Of a stretch of 40,729 nt of DNA, positions 12,677 through 26,921 are shown piece after piece. This DNA comes from Pseudorhodobacter antarcticus. GTDB taxonomy: Bacteria > Pseudomonadota > Alphaproteobacteria > Rhodobacterales > Rhodobacteraceae. A model generated the notes under the pieces. The model was not told the DNA's origin. It worked only from the letters and a program-made list of their open reading frames with translations, and searched no databases. Positions within the stretch are counted from its first letter, which is position 1. Each line of letters begins with the position of its first letter. The DNA lies in the NCBI RefSeq assembly GCF_900110135.1, contig NZ_FOCO01000028.1, positions 1 through 40,729 of the forward strand. The letters run 5' to 3'. Both the position numbers and the translations under genes were made by a program.

Positions 12677-12690
12677 TTGATATGGATCAA
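12677..12690. promoter_or_regulatory. Consensus FNR-type box between the exporter operon and cbpA
   Basis: TTGATATGGATCAA is a perfect match to the FNR consensus TTGAT-N4-ATCAA. Toward the exporter a 22-nt spacer leads to TAGGCA (12654-12649), comparable to the TAGGGT found in the N-ATPase promoter, and would give a short leader before 12622. Toward cbpA the site is 90 bp from the start and the 22-nt position (CCAATT) is a poor -10. Which gene it serves is open. It could serve both. Confidence 0.65.
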
Positions 12691-18870: not shown

Positions 18871-20178
18871 TTACCCGCCCGGCAAGTCGAACACCGCCTC
18901 AAACCGGCCCTGCGGCGCAAGCAGGGTCAGGCGGCCTTGCGCGCCGTCTGCTATGGCCTGCACGATGGACAGACCAAGGCCGCTGCCAGCGACGTTGCTT
19001 TGCCCACGTTCAAAACGCTGGGTCAGACGGGCAAGGGTTTTGGGGGACAGCGGGGGGGCCGCGTTGACCACCCGAAGGCTGCTATTGGTGAGGTCCACCT
19101 GCACGCGCCCCGTGCCATGGCGCAGCGCGTTTTCTATCAGATTGCGGGCGACGATAGCAAAGGCGTCGGGGTCCATATCCGACATCACAGGGCCTGATGG
19201 CAGCCTGTTGTCAATTCGGCCCTTATCCGGGGTGCGGTTCAACTCTGACAGCACAAGGTCTAGGATACGGCTCAAATCTGACAGATGGTCGTGGCGCAAG
19301 CGGCCACCTTCGGCGCGGGCCAGTTGCATCAGTTTTTCAGACAGGCGCGTCAGCCGTTTCAGCGCGATTTCAACCTCGCCCGCCCTTTGGCCCGCCTTTG
19401 GGTCGGTCGTTTCGGCGATCAGGCGTTGGGTTTGGGCAAGGGCGGCGGCCAGCGGCGTGCGCAACTCATGGGCGGCATTTGCGGTAAAGCTGCGCTCGGC
19501 GGTCAGGGTGCGGTCAAGGCGTTGCATCAATGCGTTGACCGCACCCGCCACGGGTTTGATTTCGTCCGGCAAATCGCCCGACCCAAGCGGAGAAAGATCG
19601 CGCGCGCCCCGGCTGGCAAGGGCCGTGCCAAACTGGCGCACGGGGCGAAGGCTGCGCCCGACAATCCAGAACACGCCCAAAAACCCCAACGGCAAGATCA
19701 CGATCAACGGCAGGGCAAGCCCGATCAGCATCTCGCGCGCCGCCTCCGCCCGGTGGGTCAGAGGTTCGGCAATCGCGATAGTCAGCGTACCTTGCAAGGC
19801 CGCGTCATAATACAAGCGGTGCGTGGCGGTTTGGCGGAACCCCATGCCGTCAAAGGCCGGGAAGTTCGCGACCTCGGCCGCATGCGAGCGCAGCAAAACC
19901 CGGCCCTGATCGTCGCGCACGATATAGGTGAAAAACTCCTTATGGTCGCGCAGGGTGGCGATGCGCTGGTCGATACCGTCCTCCTCACGCCCCAGAATGT
20001 CCAGCACGGCCAGCGGCAACAGGCGTTGCGCGGTTTCTTCCAGCGCGGAATCGAACACTTCGGCCATCTCGGCCTTCAGCAGCGTCATCGTGGCCCAAGC
20101 GGTCGCCAACCACAGCAGCACCAACCCCGCCCCAAGCGCCAGCGCCAGCCTGCTTTGCAAGGATGACGGCACCCTCAT
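18871..20178 (-). CDS. QseC/PmrB-like sensor histidine kinase
   Basis: A 435-residue inner-membrane sensor. Transmembrane helices lie at about 10-33 and 150-172 and flank a periplasmic domain of about 115 residues of the 2CSK_N (two-component sensor kinase N-terminal) type found in QseC. A HAMP-like linker follows. The dimerisation/phosphoacceptor box FTANAAHELRTPL has His237. The ATPase part includes the N-box NLIENALRHG (about 346-355) and the G-box GSGLGLSIVQAI (about 398-409). The start overlaps the response-regulator stop by 4 nt. The signal is unknown, but the divergent operon suggests it senses something the flavin-reductase system handles, such as a metal ion or redox state. Confidence 0.92.
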   Translation of the reverse strand: MRVPSSLQSRLALALGAGLVLLWLATAWATMTLLKAEMAEVFDSALEETAQRLLPLAVLDILGREEDGIDQRIATLRDHKEFFTYIVRDDQGRVLLRSHAAEVANFPAFDGMGFRQTATHRLYYDAALQGTLTIAIAEPLTHRAEAAREMLIGLALPLIVILPLGFLGVFWIVGRSLRPVRQFGTALASRGARDLSPLGSGDLPDEIKPVAGAVNALMQRLDRTLTAERSFTANAAHELRTPLAAALAQTQRLIAETTDPKAGQRAGEVEIALKRLTRLSEKLMQLARAEGGRLRHDHLSDLSRILDLVLSELNRTPDKGRIDNRLPSGPVMSDMDPDAFAIVARNLIENALRHGTGRVQVDLTNSSLRVVNAAPPLSPKTLARLTQRFERGQSNVAGSGLGLSIVQAIADGAQGRLTLLAPQGRFEAVFDLPGG

Positions 20179-20834
20179 GCCGCACCCAAACGGTAGCCAA
20201 GACCGCGCAAAGTCTCAATCCGGTCGCGGCCCAGCTTTTTGCGCAGGCGGCTGATGTGGACCTCCACGGTGTTGCTTTCCACCTCACTCTCGAAGGAATA
20301 AAGTCGGTCTTCCAGTTGTGATTTCGAAAGGATTTGGCCGGGACGCTGGACAAACCCTTCAAACAACACCCATTCACGGGCGGTTAAGGCCACCGTTTTG
20401 CCACCCCGCAAAACATGGCGTGCGGCCAGATCGACGGTAAGATCGCCAAGCGTGACCAAGGGGTTCGGATTGCCAGAATAACGCCGCGCAACTGCCCCCA
20501 ACCGCGCTGAAAGTTCAGCCAGATCAAAGGGTTTCACCATGTAATCATCGGCCCCCGCATTCAGCCCCTCAATCCGGTCGCTGATTTGGTCCAGCGCCGT
20601 CAGGATGATCACCGGCACCGTGTTGCCAGCCACACGCAGGTCGCGCAAAAAAGGCAACCCGCGCCCATCGGGCAGCATCAGGTCCAGCAAGATCAAATCA
20701 TAACTTGCGACTGCCAGATAATCCCCTGCGCCGTCCAATCGCGTGGCCCAATCAATCGAATGGCCATCAGCGGCGATCTGGTCACGCACCGCCGCCCCCA
20801 ACACAGTGTCATCCTCAATCAGCAGCACGCGCAT
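20175..20834 (-). CDS. OmpR/PhoB-family response regulator
   Basis: A 219-residue regulator. Receiver domain residues: acidic pocket Glu7/Asp8/Asp9 (LLIEDD), phosphoacceptor Asp51 (LILLDLMLPDG), Thr79 and Lys101 (MVKPF). The C-terminal winged helix includes VALTAREWVLFEGFVQRPGQILSK and VEVHISRLRKKLG, typical of QseB/PmrA. The start at 20834 is chosen because the receiver begins MRVLLIEDD. An upstream open frame to 20897 would cross the promoter. It is encoded before the kinase gene. Four CCTGAMG half-sites in the divergent region fit this protein as an autoregulator and regulator of the PepSY operon. Confidence 0.93.
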   Translation of the reverse strand: MRVLLIEDDTVLGAAVRDQIAADGHSIDWATRLDGAGDYLAVASYDLILLDLMLPDGRGLPFLRDLRVAGNTVPVIILTALDQISDRIEGLNAGADDYMVKPFDLAELSARLGAVARRYSGNPNPLVTLGDLTVDLAARHVLRGGKTVALTAREWVLFEGFVQRPGQILSKSQLEDRLYSFESEVESNTVEVHISRLRKKLGRDRIETLRGLGYRLGAA

Positions 20835-20862: not shown

Positions 20863-20942
20863 GTTATAGCAGCAAACCTGAAGCGGACCTGAAGCACAAA
20901 TCCGCCCCGCTTCAGGCAGGCGTCAGGTTCAAAGGCGATAAG
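20863..20942. promoter_or_regulatory. Symmetric divergent promoter with four CCTGA[A/C]G half-sites
   Basis: Two direct repeats of CCTGAAG with an 11-bp period are at 20877-20894 (ACCTGAAGC at 20876 and 20887). Their mirror image, CCTGAAG and CCTGACG on the minus strand also 11 bp apart, occupies 20910-20927. The centre is near 20902. Minus-strand -10 TATAAC (20868-20863) and plus-strand -10 GATAAG (20937-20942) each lie exactly 7 bp beyond the outer repeat. The 11-bp tandem period is characteristic of OmpR-family response regulators. The arrangement implies regulation of both operons by the divergent response regulator. Confidence 0.7.
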
Positions 20943-20975
20943 GCCTCATCAACACAGCTTGCAGGAGGTGAAGCA

Positions 20976-21344
20976 ATGCAAAACTATATCGGGATCAGCG
21001 CACTTTTGATTGGTCTGGGCATGGCGGGAATGGCTTTGGCGGATGACGATGATTGCCGCGTGCCAATGGCCAACTGGCAACCGCGCGAGGCGGTGCAGAA
21101 GATGGCGGAGGCACAAGGCTGGACCGTGCGGCGGATCAAAACCGACGATGGGTGTTATGAAATCATAGGCCGCGATGCATCTGGCCGCGAGATTGAGGCG
21201 AAGGTGGACCCCGCCACGCTGGCCATCGTTGAGTTTGAGTATGACGACGATGATGATCGTGGGCGCAAGGCCGCCCCTTCAAGCAGCACCACCCCGCCCG
21301 CCAATGGGCTGTTCACCCCCGGCACAAAGCCCGTGGTAAAATAA
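20976..21344 (+). CDS. Small secreted PepSY-domain protein
   Basis: A 122-residue protein with a signal peptide (cleavage after ALA, residue about 22). The mature sequence begins DDDDC and has a PepSY-like alpha-beta-beta unit: ANWQPREAVQKMAEAQGWTVRRIKTDDGCYEIIGRDASGREIEAKVDPATLAIVE. An Asp run (EYDDDDDRG, about 88-96) and a Ser/Thr/Pro-rich tail follow. The two cysteines (about 27 and 60) could form a disulfide. PepSY domains bind or regulate peptidases and reductases. The start has GGAGG 7 nt upstream. It is the first gene of the operon, so is probably the first sensed or regulatory component. Confidence 0.82.
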   Translation: MQNYIGISALLIGLGMAGMALADDDDCRVPMANWQPREAVQKMAEAQGWTVRRIKTDDGCYEIIGRDASGREIEAKVDPATLAIVEFEYDDDDDRGRKAAPSSSTTPPANGLFTPGTKPVVK

Positions 21345-21383
21345 ACAACCCCGCCGCTTTGCCCAAACCTAACGGAGAAACAG

Positions 21384-21848
21384 ATGAATATCCCCCTGAC
21401 TGCACTTGCCCTAACCACCGCTTTGGCCAGCCCGGCACTGGCGCGGCCCGTCACGATGACCACCAATATGGCGCAGTATGGCGGCGATGGGGCCTATCTT
21501 GCGCTGTACGTCACCGATGCCCAAGGGGCCTATCAGGGCAGCCTGTGGATGGCGGGCGACAAGTCGAAATACTACGAACACCTTAGCGATTGGTATCGCG
21601 CCACGGCGGGCGATGCGGCCCAGATTGACGGAATAACCGGGGCAAGCGTTGGCGCAGGCCAGCAGTTGACCATCACGCTGGATCTGGCGGATGCGCTGTT
21701 TGATGCGGGCTATTCCCTGCATATCGACGCGGGCGTGGAGGATATGCGCAACTCCCCGTCCGAAATTGTGGTGCCGCTGACATCCTCCGGCGCGGGGCAA
21801 CCCGTTCAGGGTGCCCGCTATGTCCGCGATTTCACCTATGATTTGTAA
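21384..21848 (+). CDS. DUF2271 periplasmic protein with a flavinylation motif
   Basis: A 154-residue DUF2271 protein. The signal peptide is MNIPLTALALTTALASPALA, with cleavage near residue 20. The mature domain contains GAYLALYVTDAQGAYQGSLWM, the YYEHLSDWYRATAG helix and the DGITGAS motif at residues 82-88. That matches the D-x-x-(S/T)-G-A-(S/T) sequence ApbE modifies, with Ser88 (or Thr85) as the candidate FMN acceptor. The C-terminus (ARYVRDFTYDL) is typical of DUF2271. The start at 21384 has GGAGA 8 nt upstream. The gene lies between the PepSY protein and the reductase fusion. A covalently bound FMN here would be a periplasmic electron carrier. Confidence 0.87.
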   Translation: MNIPLTALALTTALASPALARPVTMTTNMAQYGGDGAYLALYVTDAQGAYQGSLWMAGDKSKYYEHLSDWYRATAGDAAQIDGITGASVGAGQQLTITLDLADALFDAGYSLHIDAGVEDMRNSPSEIVVPLTSSGAGQPVQGARYVRDFTYDL

Positions 21849-21866
21849 GTACGGAAAGGCCCTGTC

Positions 21867-24080
21867 ATGCTGCGCCAACTGCACAAATTCCCCGGACTGA
21901 TCGCGGCCTTGCTGATCGTCACCATGGCGCTAAGCGGGGCTGTGCTGAGTGTTTTGCCCGCATGGGAGGCGGCGATGGCCCCCGCGCTGGACCAAACGCT
22001 GACCGTTGCAACCTTGGCGGAGCGGGTCAGCGCCACCTTTCCGGGGGTGGAGCAAATTCGCCGCAGCCCCGCAGGCCAGATCACTGCATTTTACTTTGAG
22101 GCAGGCCGCCCGGGTGCCGTGGTGATCGACCCCGCGACCGGAAAGGGCATAGCCGATCACGCCCCGTCCGGGCTTGCGCGTTGGGTGACCAACCTGCACC
22201 GCTCGCTGTTTTTGGGCGATGTGGGGCGTTGGACGGCGGCGGCAGGGGCGGCGGCGCTTTTGGTGCTGTCGCTCTCGGGCGTGATGCTGATGCGGCGGCG
22301 GGTTGGCGGCTGGCGGCAGATGTTTTCCCGGCTGCGCGGCCCGGTGGCAGGGCGTTTGCATACGCAGATTGCGCGGCTGTCAGTGGCGGGCTTCGTGCTG
22401 TCATCGGTAACAGCCCTGTTGATGACCGCAAGCACCTTCGATGTGTTGCCAAATGGCACGGCACCTGCATTCCCCGCGCAGGTCAGCGGCCGGATCGGTG
22501 CCACGCCCGGCACCATGCCCTTGTTGCAAGATACACCCGTGCAGGGTTTGCGAGAATTAACCTTCCCCTATGCGGGCGATCCTACGGATGTGTTCGCGTT
22601 GAAAACCAATAGGGGTGAAGGGTTTATCGACCAAGGCACGGGTGCCACCTTGCTTTGGGCGGATGCCGGTTTTTGGCAAAGGTTCAATGAAGTGGTCTTC
22701 ATGCTGCACACCGGCCAAGGCATGGCTTGGTTGGGCTTGATCCTGGGGCTGATGGCGCTGGGGGTGCCGGTTATGGCTGTGACGGGGGTCGCCATATGGC
22801 TGAAAAGCTACCGAGCCCGGCCCCGAATGATCGGCAATGCAGCGGCGGCTCAGGCCGATACGATTTTGCTGGTGGGCAGTGAGGGCGGCAGCACTTGGGG
22901 TTTTGCGGCCACCCTGCACGCCGCATTGCGGCTGGCCGGGCATAAGGTGCATGCGGCCCCGATGACGCAGTTAGATCTGGGCCGCTACAACCGCGCCGCA
23001 CGGGTGATCGTGCTGACCGCCACCTATGGCGATGGGGTCGCGCCCGCCTCAGCCAAGGGGTTTTTGGACCGGCTGGCCGCCCTGCCCCATGCCCCCACTA
23101 TCCCGCTGGCGGTGTTGGGATTTGGCGACCGTCAGTTCCCGCAGTTTTGCGCCTATGCAGGCGATGTGGCGCGTGTGGCGCGTGTGGCACAGGCGAAGGG
23201 CTGGCCCAACCTGTTGCCCATGGCGACGATAGACCGCCAATCGCCGCAAGAATTTGCCCGCTGGGGCCGCGATCTTGGCAATGCTTTGCGGCACGCGCTG
23301 GACCTGGCGCACAGCCCGGCAATTCCGCGCAGCCATCCCCTTACGCTGATCTCGCGCCGCGAGTATGGCACGGATATGCAAACCCCTGCCGCCATTCTGC
23401 GCTTTGCATGCCCACAATCGGCGCGGTTCGACTGGATAGCCGGGCGCGGTTTCGGGCGATTTGGCCCCGGGGATTTGCTGGGGATATTGCCCACAGGCTC
23501 CCCCCTGCCAAGGTTTTATTCGCTCGCCTGCGCCACGCACGACGGGTTTATCGAAGTCTGCATCAGCCGGGTGCCGGGGGGCCTGTGTTCGGGCCAATTG
23601 CTGGACTTGGCCCCCGGCGATACGGTCCAAGCCTTCGTGCGCCCCAACCCCGATTTCAAACCCACAAAGGGCCGCAAACCCGTGATCCTCATCGGGGCAG
23701 GCACCGGGATTGGCCCCTTGGCAGGCTTTGCCCGCGCCAACACAGCCAGGCGCCCGCTGCATCTGTATTTTGGCACGCGCCACCCGGACCATGATCTTTT
23801 CTATGGCGAGGAGCTGGCAGCGTGGCAGAACGCGGGCAAACTTGCCTCCGTGACCACCGCCTTTTCGCGCACCAACACCCGCGCCTATGTGCAAGATGCG
23901 TTGCACGCCGATGCCGCCCACATCGCCCAGCTTATCAGTGAGGGCGCGCAGATCATGGTCTGCGGGGGGCGCGATATGGCCGCAGGGGTGGCCACCGTCT
24001 TGGCCGAGGTGCTGGCCCCGACGAAATGGACACCCGCCTTGTTGAAAGCCGAGGGGCGTTATGTTGAAGACACCTATTGA
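21867..24080 (+). CDS. PepSY-TM / flavodoxin / ferredoxin-reductase fusion (transmembrane flavin reductase)
   Basis: A 737-residue fusion. N-terminal PepSY-TM unit with membrane segments about 10-32, 126-144, 168-188 and 285-312. Histidines in LHRSLF (about 111), LHTQ (165) and MLHTGQG (281) are candidate haem ligands. A flavodoxin-like domain follows (about 330-470; GSEGGSTWGFA FMN loop, TATYGDGVAP). Last comes a FAD/NAD(P)H-binding part (about 495-737) with RFYSLA, the nicotinamide loop GAGTGIGPLAGF, FGTRHPDHDLFYGEEL and a C-terminal RYVEDTY. This is a cytosol-to-periplasm electron route of the sulfite-reductase-flavoprotein type. It overlaps apbE by 20 nt. Near 23163-23195 a short GTGGCGCGT repeat gives VARVARVAQA. 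Confidence 0.9.
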   Translation: MLRQLHKFPGLIAALLIVTMALSGAVLSVLPAWEAAMAPALDQTLTVATLAERVSATFPGVEQIRRSPAGQITAFYFEAGRPGAVVIDPATGKGIADHAPSGLARWVTNLHRSLFLGDVGRWTAAAGAAALLVLSLSGVMLMRRRVGGWRQMFSRLRGPVAGRLHTQIARLSVAGFVLSSVTALLMTASTFDVLPNGTAPAFPAQVSGRIGATPGTMPLLQDTPVQGLRELTFPYAGDPTDVFALKTNRGEGFIDQGTGATLLWADAGFWQRFNEVVFMLHTGQGMAWLGLILGLMALGVPVMAVTGVAIWLKSYRARPRMIGNAAAAQADTILLVGSEGGSTWGFAATLHAALRLAGHKVHAAPMTQLDLGRYNRAARVIVLTATYGDGVAPASAKGFLDRLAALPHAPTIPLAVLGFGDRQFPQFCAYAGDVARVARVAQAKGWPNLLPMATIDRQSPQEFARWGRDLGNALRHALDLAHSPAIPRSHPLTLISRREYGTDMQTPAAILRFACPQSARFDWIAGRGFGRFGPGDLLGILPTGSPLPRFYSLACATHDGFIEVCISRVPGGLCSGQLLDLAPGDTVQAFVRPNPDFKPTKGRKPVILIGAGTGIGPLAGFARANTARRPLHLYFGTRHPDHDLFYGEELAAWQNAGKLASVTTAFSRTNTRAYVQDALHADAAHIAQLISEGAQIMVCGGRDMAAGVATVLAEVLAPTKWTPALLKAEGRYVEDTY

Positions 24081-24999
24081 CCCGACCCGCTACATTTTGG
24101 GCGGCCCGACGATGGGCACACACTGGACGGCACTGTTTCATGCAAATCCAGCGGTTGATCTGGACCCCATTCACGCGGCGCTGGCCCGATGTGTTGACGT
24201 GGTTGACCGCCAAATGTCGACGTGGAAACCGGACAGCGACCTGATGCGGATAAACCGCGCGCCGGTAGGCCTATGGCAGGACGTACCCGCCGAATTGCTA
24301 GCGGTTTTGACCGAGGGTCTCGACATTGGCCGCAGGTCCGGCGGGGCCTTTGATATTGCCATGGGGGATCTGGTGACGGCTTGGAGCTTTGGTCCTGACC
24401 CTGCGGATAGCCGCGCGATCCGGGCCGCTTTGGGCCAAGGGCGACCCAGCGCGCATGAGGTTTTGGAGCTTGACCCCGCCGCCCGCAAACTTCGCAAACT
24501 GGCCCCAGTGGCGCTGGACCTTTCGGGCATCGCCAAAGGCTTTGCGGTGGATTTGATGACCGACACGCTGCGCCGCTTTGGCATCGAAAGTGGGCTGCTG
24601 GGTTTGGACGGTGAGATGCGCGGCTTTGGCCTGCGCCCGGATGGAACGGGATGGAGCGTGGCTGTGGAACGCCCCGATTATGACGCCCGCACCCCCCTGT
24701 CGATGATCGCGCTGCAAGATAGCGCCGTGGCCACCTCCGGCGATTATCGCCATTGGGTGGAGGTTGGCCCCCGGCGGCTGTCGCATACAATGGACCCCGC
24801 GCGCGGCGGGCCGCTGGGCCATACGCTCGCATCAGTGACGGTGCTGGCGAATACCTGCATGGCGGCGGATGCCTGGGCCACGGCGCTGATGGTGGCGGGG
24901 GTGGAAAAGGGCACCAGTTTGGCGCAGCAAAACGGCCTCGCTGCATTGTTTTTGCAGCGGAAAGGTGCTGCGGTGCTGCAAACGCGCGTAGGGTGGTGA
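24061..24999 (+). CDS. apbE: FAD:protein FMN transferase (ApbE)
   Basis: A 312-residue ApbE-family enzyme that transfers FMN from FAD to Thr/Ser of target proteins. Seen motifs: MGTHWTALF near the N-terminus, MSTWKPDSDLMRIN, GGAFDIAMGDLV, DLSGIAKGFAVD (about 155-166), the SHTMDPARGGP loop and DAWATALMV near the end, with a conserved Asp/Thr pair for Mg2+ binding. No signal peptide or lipobox is apparent, unusual for a periplasm-directed ApbE. Either a different start outside the fusion gene is used, or flavinylation happens before export. Its start lies inside the end of the reductase gene (20-nt overlap). Its probable target is the DUF2271 protein. Confidence 0.9.
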   Translation: MLKTPIDPTRYILGGPTMGTHWTALFHANPAVDLDPIHAALARCVDVVDRQMSTWKPDSDLMRINRAPVGLWQDVPAELLAVLTEGLDIGRRSGGAFDIAMGDLVTAWSFGPDPADSRAIRAALGQGRPSAHEVLELDPAARKLRKLAPVALDLSGIAKGFAVDLMTDTLRRFGIESGLLGLDGEMRGFGLRPDGTGWSVAVERPDYDARTPLSMIALQDSAVATSGDYRHWVEVGPRRLSHTMDPARGGPLGHTLASVTVLANTCMAADAWATALMVAGVEKGTSLAQQNGLAALFLQRKGAAVLQTRVGW

Positions 25000-25007
25000 T
25001 CGCCACG

Positions 25008-26921
25008 CTATGCCGTGCTTTTGGGATTCGCTTCCGGCCCCATATCAGCAGGCGAAATCCGCAAGGCCCGCAGGGCGTTCAGGATCACGGCTACGTCGAT
25101 CACCTCTTGGAACACAGCGCCTTGCACCGGGGTCAGATAGCCAAAGGCCGCTGCGATCATGCCCAGCACAGAAAGGCCAATCCCCGCGACGACACTTTGC
25201 AGCGCGATGCGGCGCGAGGCCTGCGCAATGGCAATCCCGATGCCTAACCGGTCGATCCGGTCCACCAACAGCACCACATCGGCGGCCTCGGCACTGGCGG
25301 CAGCCCCCCGCGCGCCCATCGCCACACCCACGTCGGCGGCGGCAAGCGCTGGCGCGTCATTCACGCCGTCCCCCACCATCATCACCGGGGCGGCGCTGCG
25401 TTCCCCCACCACCAGCTGCACCTTGCCATCCGGGGTTAGCCCCGCGTGGATGCCGTCAAGGCCCAAACCCGTCGTCACGCGGGCGGCCACATCGGCCCGG
25501 TCGCCCGTTGCCAGCAATATCCGGGTGATGCCCAGTCCGCGCAGCCCCCCCAGCATGGCCCCGGCCCCGTCGCGCAGCGGATCGGCCATCACCAGATGCC
25601 CCGCCATGTGGCCCTCCACGGCCACAGCCACAAGAACCGCCCCCACGGGGAATGCCGGGCTGGCGGCGGATTGCCCCACAGAGAGCCCCACCGACCGCGC
25701 CACGAAATCATCGCCACCAACAATGATGCGCCGCCCGTCAACCGTTCCCGTGACCCCTTCGCCAGCGACTTCCACAACCCCAGTCGGAATAGGCAAATCC
25801 AAATCGCGCAATTTGGCAGCGGCAACAATGGCCTGCGCCACGGGATGTTTCGACGCCTGATCAAGGGCAGCGACAAAGCGCAGAATATCATCCTCCGTAA
25901 AACCGGGCTGGCAGGCGATAGAGGTGATTTGCGGGCGGCCATCGGTCAGCGTGCCGGTTTTGTCCAAAATCAGGGTGCGAATACGCGCCATTGCCTCCAG
26001 CGGCCCAGCCCCTTTGATCAACACACCGAAATGTGCTGCGCGCGACAAGCCCGCGACCAAGGCCACCGGCACGGCCAAAATCAGCGGGCAAGGTGTGGCA
26101 ACCACCAGCACGGCCACCGCGCGGATCGGGTCGCCCGTGGCCCACCAAGCCGCCCCGGCAATGCCCACCGTTACTGCCAGAAACCCAAGGGACCAACGAT
26201 CCGCGAGCCGCGACATCGGCGCTTTGGACTGTTGCGCCGCCTCCACCAGCCGCAAAATCCCGGCATAGGTGCTGTTGCGGGCCAGATGCGTCGCGGTCAA
26301 ATCAAAGGGCGCGCCTGCGTTGGTCGAGCCGCTCATCACCGGCGATCCCTTGGTCATGCGCGCGGACAGCGATTCCCCCGTTAGCGCGGATGTGTCCACA
26401 AAGGCCGTATATGATGCGATGATCCCATCCACGGGCACCATATCGCCCTGACGGATCAGCAAAAGATCGCCGGGGGTTACCGCGTCCAGCGCCACCTCCT
26501 CCAATTGTCCATTGCTGTGCCGGGTGGCGCTGCGCGGCACACGCGCCAGCAGGCTGTGCATCTCGCGCCGCGCCCGGCCTTCGGCAAAGGTTTCCAGCAA
26601 GGTGCCGCCCGCATACATGACCGCCACAACCGCCGCCGCAAGCACCTCGTCAAAGGCCAGCGCCGCTGTCATAGACAAGGCCGCGACGATATCCAGCCCC
26701 ACCTCACCCCGCCAGAGGCTGCGCAGAATCTCAATGATCAGTGCCGCCAGTACAGGCACAACGCCTACAAACCAGACCAAGCTGGCCTTGTCGCCCATGC
26801 CGATCATGTAAAGGCCCAGCCCAACGAGTAGCCCCAGCAATGCAAGCCCAAAGAGCGCGATTTTGAACCGATCAGTGCTGGAGTGTTCCACGCTTGGTGA
26901 CTTTCTTATCGGTGGCTTCAC
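25008..26921 (-). CDS. Heavy-metal P1B-type ATPase with TPC motif
   Basis: A 637-residue metal pump. No N-terminal metal-binding domain is seen; residues 1-20 are polar and the first membrane helices begin near 22. The actuator TGES is at 181-184. The metal-site helix carries TPCPLIL (276-282) instead of CPC. DKTGTLT holds the phosphorylated Asp320, the HP motif is SKHPVAQ (358-364), and GDGVNDAP is at 517-524. A TPC motif marks the P1B-5 type, linked to Ni/Fe export in Sinorhizobium, but the hemerythrin tail of that type is absent. It begins with GTG at 26921, with no better start downstream. Convergent with apbE, whose stop is 8 bp away. Confidence 0.88.
   Translation of the reverse strand: MKPPIRKSPSVEHSSTDRFKIALFGLALLGLLVGLGLYMIGMGDKASLVWFVGVVPVLAALIIEILRSLWRGEVGLDIVAALSMTAALAFDEVLAAAVVAVMYAGGTLLETFAEGRARREMHSLLARVPRSATRHSNGQLEEVALDAVTPGDLLLIRQGDMVPVDGIIASYTAFVDTSALTGESLSARMTKGSPVMSGSTNAGAPFDLTATHLARNSTYAGILRLVEAAQQSKAPMSRLADRWSLGFLAVTVGIAGAAWWATGDPIRAVAVLVVATPCPLILAVPVALVAGLSRAAHFGVLIKGAGPLEAMARIRTLILDKTGTLTDGRPQITSIACQPGFTEDDILRFVAALDQASKHPVAQAIVAAAKLRDLDLPIPTGVVEVAGEGVTGTVDGRRIIVGGDDFVARSVGLSVGQSAASPAFPVGAVLVAVAVEGHMAGHLVMADPLRDGAGAMLGGLRGLGITRILLATGDRADVAARVTTGLGLDGIHAGLTPDGKVQLVVGERSAAPVMMVGDGVNDAPALAAADVGVAMGARGAAASAEAADVVLLVDRIDRLGIGIAIAQASRRIALQSVVAGIGLSVLGMIAAAFGYLTPVQGAVFQEVIDVAVILNALRALRISPADMGPEANPKSTA

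Follow-up and report, generated by a model that had tools for sequence, protein, structure and literature searches.

A putative PepSY-like electron-export locus in Pseudorhodobacter antarcticus with a signal-less ApbE, an exported DUF2271 protein and a conserved candidate operator

Where does a flavin transferase meet its target when the target carries an export signal and the enzyme carries none? This question is raised by a locus of Pseudorhodobacter antarcticus (Alphaproteobacteria, Rhodobacteraceae; genome of 3.79 Mb in 115 contigs, 99.99% complete). It lies in a stretch of 40,729 nucleotides, contig NZ_FOCO01000028.1 of assembly GCF_900110135.1, which was analyzed at its full length and is called the window below. 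Four plus-strand genes at 20976-24999 encode, by their Pfam domains, a PepSY_2 protein, a DUF2271 protein, a PepSY_TM-flavodoxin-FNR fusion and the flavin transferase ApbE, with intergenic gaps of 39 and 18 nucleotides and then a 20-nucleotide overlap of apbE with the fusion gene. The genes of a response regulator and a sensor kinase are divergent from them on the minus strand. An earlier reading made from the letters alone (the sequence-only reading) had proposed a single four-gene operon with small gaps or overlaps and a divergent two-component system. Both proposals are borne out, and the operon is confirmed. The features are as follows.

18871-20178, minus strand: sensor histidine kinase (2CSK_N, HAMP, HisKA and HATPase_c by Pfam; HAMP at 24 bits, slightly under its cut-off of 25)
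20175-20834, minus strand: OmpR-type response regulator (Pfam), its ATG at 20834
20878-20926, unstranded: candidate operator CTGA-N7-CTGA-N19-TCAG-N7-TCAG, two tandem half-site pairs facing each other (exact match)
20976-21344, plus strand: predicted exported PepSY_2 protein, 122 amino acids (PF13670, 98.2 bits)
21384-21848, plus strand: DUF2271 protein, 154 amino acids (PF10029, 118.6 bits), predicted carrier of flavin mononucleotide (FMN) on Ser88, with a signal peptide not of the twin-arginine (Tat) type
21627-21647, plus strand: flavinylation motif DGITGAS, residues 82-88 of the DUF2271 protein
21867-24080, plus strand: fusion of PepSY_TM (four transmembrane segments, four His), flavodoxin and an FNR-like part for flavin adenine dinucleotide (FAD) and NADPH, 737 amino acids (Pfam; PepSY_TM, PF03929, 112.8 bits; Flavodoxin_1 41.8 bits; NAD_binding_1 48.4 bits)
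24061-24999, plus strand: ApbE flavin transferase, 312 amino acids, without signal peptide (PF02424, 253 bits)

We propose, with moderate confidence, that this locus encodes a PepSY-like electron-export system under two-component control, whose DUF2271 protein would be flavinylated in the cytosol before Sec export and whose acceptor is most likely a metal. ApbE would attach FMN to the DUF2271 precursor in the cytosol, using cytosolic FAD; Sec would then export the FMN-bearing chain, and the divergent kinase and regulator would act through the paired tandem operator. The kind of system is known, namely the 'PepSY-like' flavinylated systems of Meheust et al. 2021 (PMC8238504; papers given by PMC number are cited from excerpts, to which statements about them apply). 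What is new is a variant in regulation and partner set, together with a conflict between the compartments of enzyme and target that is under-noticed.

Compartments of the flavin transferase and its target

Within the family, 53 of 248 genomes have a DUF2271 match at E up to 0.001, and 54 family neighbourhoods were compared with the window. A second set of named loci holds the best 80 of 480 by similarity to the DUF2271 of the window group; it is biased to this type and overlaps the first set in nine loci. Further matches came from other classes of the phylum. N-termini were scored with one simple rule, based on the start codon, a hydrophobic 11-mer, charge and the small residues that follow it; the rule is not SignalP. 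None of the linked ApbE copies has a signal-like N-terminus by this rule (0/53 in the family, 0/79 in the named set); 51 of the 53 family rows stand directly after the fusion gene (those of L075 and L080 do not), and the row of L083 is a partial match. The same rule finds a signal-like N-terminus on DUF2271 in 51 of 55 family sequences and in all 80 named ones, the window copy looking alike by eye, and on PepSY_2 in 51/51 family matches. Among 20 unlinked ApbE copies of the same genomes, taken from about 44, 19 pass the rule and the twentieth is plainly Tat by eye; to the eye, all 20 bear Tat or lipoprotein signals. A mis-called apbE start was considered and rejected on account of an in-frame stop at 24043, five codons upstream of the ATG; the conserved core starts 14 residues in, and the motifs TSGDY, SHTMDP and ADAWATAL are present. 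Tat export of a folded, FMN-bearing DUF2271 was likewise rejected, with no RR in the n-regions of 54 family sequences (one family row having no start found) or of the 80 named ones.

The ApbE tree comprised 24 operon-type rows (mainly every third sequence; L075, L080 and L083 omitted), 30 other-class, four fused and 20 unlinked rows. DUF2271-linked copies form one branch (54 rows, 95/90) in which the operon type is nested (24 rows, 97/97), and the 20 signal-bearing unlinked copies and the four fusions fall outside it, the midpoint root serving for drawing only. Linked ApbEs from other classes pass the signal rule in 5 of 39 cases, four of them single ApbE-DUF2271 polypeptides and the fifth (L107) apparently a false positive. 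These polypeptides (L096, L105, L139, L140), whose two parts move as one chain, have their own branch in the ApbE tree and lack the strict [ST]GA[ST] motif; perhaps they are not self-flavinylating proteins at all.

Genome content narrows the choice of target. The P. antarcticus genome has one ApbE and one DUF2271, and a search of it for FMN_bind, DUF3570 and NqrB/RnfD proteins, other targets not being searched, found none; DUF2271 is thus the sole target among the known families. A single ApbE occurs in 15 of 52 genomes (its own included), of which one has FMN_bind (G028, 86% complete), compared with 29 of the 37 multi-ApbE genomes (Fisher p 2.2e-6, relatedness not corrected). The other eight multi-ApbE genomes are without FMN_bind, and DUF2271 occurs at two loci in four of them (G138, G132, G182, G097). 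FMN_bind was found in none of the twelve single-ApbE genomes with a completeness of 95% or more (in one of these, G060, the ApbE match is partial). These counts leave out G124, below cut-off, from the 53 genomes with DUF2271, and the ApbE matches of G119 and G202 are partly fragments. This pattern suggests that the operon ApbE serves DUF2271 alone, and the extra ApbEs, signal-bearing in the 20 copies examined, seem to go with FMN_bind proteins.

The presumed FMN site is also conserved. DGITGAS contains Thr85 and Ser88, and since the last residue of the flavinylation motif takes the FMN (PMC12052999), Ser88 is the predicted site; the sequence-only reading had allowed either residue. Strict [ST]GA[ST] is found in 54 of 55 family DUF2271 matches (L057 has TGGS) and in 80/80 named relatives. 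The leading position is N in 62, D in 16 and S in two of these 80, so that of the D-x-x-S/T-G-A-S/T signature proposed earlier the second half holds and the leading D is not conserved; that Asp was nearly dispensable in a tested fumarate reductase (PMC12052999). The motif was reported as conserved in 282 flavinylation-associated DUF2271s, and a gel with a Thr-to-Ala control showed flavinylation of one DUF2271 by its ApbE, signal-truncated DUF2271 and ApbE having been co-expressed in E. coli (PMC8238504, 2021). The link between this family and flavinylation, previously credited to survey work only, therefore has an experiment behind it. A seven-residue tag suffices for ApbE (PMC12052999), which implies that no particular folded domain is needed. 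The AlphaFold2 model of the window's DUF2271 has a predicted local distance difference test (pLDDT) score of 90.6, and Foldseek returned no PDB match for it at E <=0.001.

A signal-less ApbE, a target with a non-Tat export signal and a single copy of each make flavinylation in the cytosol before export the simplest explanation. The appeal of the sequence-only reading to NqrC-type flavinylation is not supported, as ApbEs of that type are described as periplasmic and no signal was found on this one; the genome also has no FMN_bind, the domain expected for targets of the NqrC/RnfG/NosR type. The cytosolic ApbE of Klebsiella likewise has no signal peptide, but its target is a soluble fumarate reductase (PMC12052999), whereas the target here carries an export signal. 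In the excerpts of the 2021 and 2024 flavinylation papers and of the 2025 review, and among the results of our literature searches, nothing was seen on a cytosolic ApbE that acts for an exported target, and a search on Sec passage of flavinylated chains gave nothing on point by title or abstract start.

If the proposal is true, covalently flavinylated chains pass the Sec pore, and flavin enters the periplasm bound to protein and not as exported FAD. A 2015 paper states that it is not known where periplasmic flavin comes from (PMC4767422), and a subunit of an ECF transporter has been reported to supply it in Listeria (PMC9973259). A signal-less ApbE branch with an exported target, the sole ApbE in 12 near-complete genomes, makes another flavin route testable.

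The candidate operator and its proposed two-component switch

The candidate operator lies 43 nucleotides from the regulator ATG and 49 nucleotides from the PepSY_2 ATG. The 3.79-Mb genome contains no second such site, even when the inner gaps may range over 8-24, and the reversed control pattern gave none. The sequence-only reading had credited the operon with its own symmetric operator; the site is real, being an exact four-half-site match that is conserved in relatives. Upstream of the regulator, with a spacer of N19 or N20, 15-16 of its 16 positions are matched in 45 of the 46 regions compared (the window's among them), and the sole region under the threshold (L032) matches 13. These 46 regions were taken from 55 (54 loci plus the window), of which eight had no regulator match above 200 bits and L071 no recognised start. 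Among 4,600 dinucleotide shuffles none scored above 14/16, and 0.07% reached 14. Regions of the named set (77 of 80 tested) score at least 15 in 76 cases, or in 67/68 of those outside the first set.

A genome-wide scan covered 42 of the 51 other family genomes with DUF2271 above cut-off and four more having the locus; the nine genomes omitted are mostly fragmented or less complete. The exact operator occurs in 41 of these 46 relatives, at 70 sites of which 69 are at the flavin locus and one (G177:C1:299302) is away from it, and the reversed control gave 0. The 1.09 Mb of named loci would be expected from base composition to hold 0.0002 exact sites, and 78 of the 80 loci hold at least one. A chance inverted repeat was rejected on the genome scan, the shuffles and the relatives' genomes. 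Near-exclusive placement at the locus, with one site in the window genome, makes the switch look dedicated, and the divergent regulator and kinase look like a pair devoted to the flavin locus. Such an operator would offer a clean reporter for the trigger of periplasmic electron export.

More than one operator site was seen in 82 of 195 scanned sequences, and the window locus has one. Where inspected (L167:6906, L168:6904 and others), the extra operator precedes DUF2271-proximal genes; in L167 it starts 95 bp before the DUF2271 start. Many relatives thus seem to run two or three promoters under the same putative regulator.

By NCBIfam the regulator is closest to PmrA (213.5 bits, cut-off 330), ahead of QseB (185.8 bits, cut-off 345), and the best match of the kinase is QseC (168.2 bits, cut-off 475). 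The label 'QseBC-like' given in the sequence-only reading therefore holds loosely, and filing the pair as QseBC was rejected since both equivalog cut-offs are missed. After its first transmembrane segment the kinase has ExxE at residues 37-40, with E37 kept in 51 and E40 in 47 of 53 aligned sequences; part of this stretch may be shared by QseC-type kinases. BqsRS/CarRS of Pseudomonas aeruginosa, which has a Fe2+-responsive kinase and whose BqsR we take to be an OmpR-family regulator, is alike in the 11-bp period of its tandem half sites and in an ExxE motif in the periplasmic domain of the kinase. The BqsR half sites are pentamers with that period (TTAAG-N6-TTAAG), with hundreds of near matches in its genome (PMC4682146); TTAAG stands there against CTGA here. 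ExxE occurs in iron-sensing kinases (PMC12666569), and by itself would be too short as proof of metal sensing. The tuning to a periplasmic signal (metals or low redox potential) suggested in the sequence-only reading is not supported in that form.

Proposed electron path, acceptor and competing explanations

The fusion protein has four hydrophobic segments. Its loops 143-168 (+7) and 313-330 (+4) are positive and loop 190-285 (-4) is negative, a pattern that places the diflavin half in the cytosol. H6, H111, H165 and H281 are kept in all 59 rows ungapped there, out of 65. Against the PDB, the profile of the membrane half has one meaningful match, FoxB of P. aeruginosa (7abw; E 3.4e-9 for the whole chain, single stretches being weak), and each of the four invariant His except the third (thus 6, 111 and 281) is aligned with a FoxB His. 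That protein has two haem sites with conserved His (PMC11334425), and the four conserved His and four transmembrane windows here fit a di-haem PepSY_TM cytochrome of its type; the FoxB chain, of 382 residues, has no reductase fused to it, whereas the window protein adds a cytosolic diflavin reductase. The diflavin half matches NADPH-cytochrome P450 reductase and CysJ both by sequence profile and by fold (model pLDDT 86.5), differing from them in that Pfam FAD_binding_1 was not detected in the fusion and that its electrons should reach membrane haems instead of a soluble partner. An SR-x-YVQ stretch, which we take to be tied to the NADPH type, is present in 56 of 66 fusion sequences. The alignments took in 47 of 101 sequences (A1), 24 of 59 (A2), 16 (A3) and 19 (A4), with the window's.

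Electrons would accordingly run from NADPH to the FAD and FMN of the CysJ/P450-reductase-like half in the cytosol, cross the membrane over two haems held by the four His of the PepSY_TM half, and pass to FMN on Ser88 of the exported DUF2271 and on to a periplasmic acceptor. The parts that the sequence-only reading had counted for such a path are all there: a diflavin reductase, four invariant His for two haems, a flavinylation target and ApbE.

The 2021 survey found 3220 PepSY-like clusters and 1077 PepSY-like genes with a NAD-binding domain (PMC8238504). As in its systems, and in CCNA_03155-03159 of Caulobacter, the locus combines a PepSY_TM membrane protein (PF03929/PF16357) within a flavinylation cluster, a DUF2271 gene of a target family with signal peptide and [ST]GA[ST], and ApbE. 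It differs from them in that the flavodoxin and FNR parts are fused, an exported PepSY_2 is present and the operon has neither a TonB receptor nor DUF4198, a partner that is frequent but non-defining in the survey. Control also differs, by a two-component system and operator here as against the Fur control reported for Caulobacter. The related Caulobacter locus is iron-responsive and Fur-linked (PMC3751524; PMC8238504), its transposon mutants are less fit in ethylenediaminetetraacetic acid (PMC12004947), and in Alteromonas DUF2271/DUF4198 genes go up when iron is limiting (PMC7190382). These iron-linked systems make ferric or chelated-metal reduction the first guess, and by analogy reduction of iron(III) or another chelated metal would be the likeliest purpose. 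Two-component control, the lack of a TonB receptor and DUF4198, and a P1B ATPase gene that many relatives have behind apbE would also agree with a metal- or envelope-stress role.

That role leads to a competing account: instead of supporting the uptake of iron, the system would serve periplasmic repair or detoxification, against oxidised proteins and metal or cationic stress. The same absences and the two-component control speak for it. So does the P1B metal ATPase gene, which 18/54 and 30/79 relatives have behind apbE in the same orientation, and so do the Ferric_reduct protein of L036 and the cytochrome b561 found at six loci. The closest studied systems, however, are iron-repressed and iron-linked, and the operon has no repair enzyme such as MsrP; we consider this account less likely than not. 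That the operator is a shared OmpR-family site of many genes appears improbable. BqsR, with its 11-bp-period tandem half sites and hundreds of near matches, speaks for it, but 69 of 70 exact sites in the relatives' genomes are at the locus and the window genome has one, in a scan that covered exact paired sites, not single pairs or degenerate ones.

Other explanations concern the flavin itself. ApbE could reach the periplasm without a classical signal, by piggy-back or leakage, and flavinylate there as for NqrC; DUF2271 has a clear export signal, and the 2025 review describes the ApbE for exported proteins as periplasmic, its localisation there being essential (PMC12052999). We consider this unlikely given that none of the 53 and 79 linked copies has a signal although unlinked copies carry one (19/20 by the rule), that the apbE frame opens five codons before its ATG, and that the 5/39 other-class copies passing the rule include four ApbE-DUF2271 polypeptides. 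It is more doubtful still that the DUF2271 here is not flavinylated, with ApbE having another, unrecognised target or being a FAD hydrolase. The mostly Asn leading position (62/80), the 31 of 59 other-class matches without strict [ST]GA[ST] and the mismatched compartments would agree with it. Set against these are the near-invariant motif in the family and named sets, the DUF2271 flavinylated experimentally (PMC8238504), the nearly dispensable Asp of fumarate reductase (PMC12052999) and a genome in which no FMN_bind, DUF3570 or NqrB/RnfD was found, other targets not being searched.

Several points weigh against cytosolic flavinylation, a dedicated switch and a metal acceptor as we propose them. 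In an early study an apbE mutant was not rescued by a cytosolic ApbE (PMC12052999), and the ApbE tested in 2021 was called 'signal peptide-truncated' (PMC8238504), which means that a signal may be present on part of the DUF2271 partners. The rule used here misses real signals, calling 4/55 DUF2271 and 1/20 unlinked ApbE negative, and the TGAS loop could equally receive FMN when folded. Strict [ST]GA[ST] is present in only 28 of 59 other-class DUF2271 matches, and these looser forms, with TGGS in L057, indicate a target motif looser than assumed. The exact operator was not found in five of the 46 genomes carrying the locus (G111, G006, G169, G206, G012), and binding of the regulator to it is suggested by position and conservation only. 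The missing DUF4198 and TonB receptor make the iron role by analogy weaker. With these points counted, we are on balance inclined to the wider view that a signal-less ApbE clade, spread with DUF2271 operons through Proteobacteria, flavinylates the precursor before Sec, and that the switch serves almost nothing else.

Other-class DUF2271 sequences (L086-L145) that depart from the motif have forms such as SGPT, TGPT and SSAT, some beside ApbE; either ApbE tolerates Pro or part of the DUF2271 family is not flavinylated.

Relatives, neighbouring genes and minor observations

Best matches in the 54 family neighbourhoods gave the regulator and kinase in 47, PepSY_2 in 40, ApbE in 51 and PepSY_TM in 54. 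Within up to 7 kb in the 80 named loci, PepSY_TM was found in 80, ApbE downstream in 79, PepSY_2 in 79, the regulator in 78 and the kinase in 76. Absence of the gene order from relatives was what the sequence-only reading had said would speak against it, and by these counts the order is kept in the named neighbourhoods. Paracoccus versutus DSM 582 (L212) and Roseovarius sp. 217 (L240) are among the carriers. The named loci include Aliiroseovarius (closest), Roseovarius, Paracoccus, Thioclava and Stappia, and also Aurantimonas, Hoeflea, Rhizobium terricola, Sneathiella and Iodidimonas. Many family relatives insert genes between PepSY_2 and DUF2271, namely cytochrome b561, the Ferric_reduct oxidoreductase or a second PepSY_2, and the window locus is the short version.

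Outside the family, regulator, kinase and PepSY_2 occur together in 5 of 59 loci (L097, L098, L101, L143, L144), and 21 of the 59 have the classic order of DUF2271, then ApbE, then a PepSY_TM match. DUF4198 was confirmed in 4/4 genes tested from other-class DUF2271 clusters. Two loci from other classes of the phylum (L141, L142) have a fused PepSY_TM and ApbE without matches to regulator, kinase or PepSY_2; two others (L143, L144) have regulator, kinase and PepSY_2, with no ApbE match in the examined stretch.

One neighbouring gene lies directly beyond apbE.

25008-26921, minus strand: heavy-metal P1B-type ATPase with a TPC motif, convergent with apbE

As it is convergent here, its membership in the window operon was rejected. 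In relatives it follows apbE directly on the same strand in 18/54 and 30/79 loci and was found on the opposite strand in 0/54 and 0/79, which suggests that this lineage underwent an inversion or a local rearrangement. Its transmembrane TPC is presumably a mark of P1B-5 (Fe2+/Ni2+) ATPases, an assignment that we did not find in PMC4932525.

An Rfam scan at the gathering threshold and a tRNA scan of the window were empty. FNR-box-like sites (TTGAT-N4-ATCAA, at most one mismatch) number six in the window compared with 0.82 expected, two of them exact and none in the operon. They lie at window positions 12677, 15572, 34036 and others, with neighbours that include a Crp-type regulator, PhaC, an alcohol dehydrogenase and ATP synthase-type subunits, and perhaps mark a low-oxygen island.

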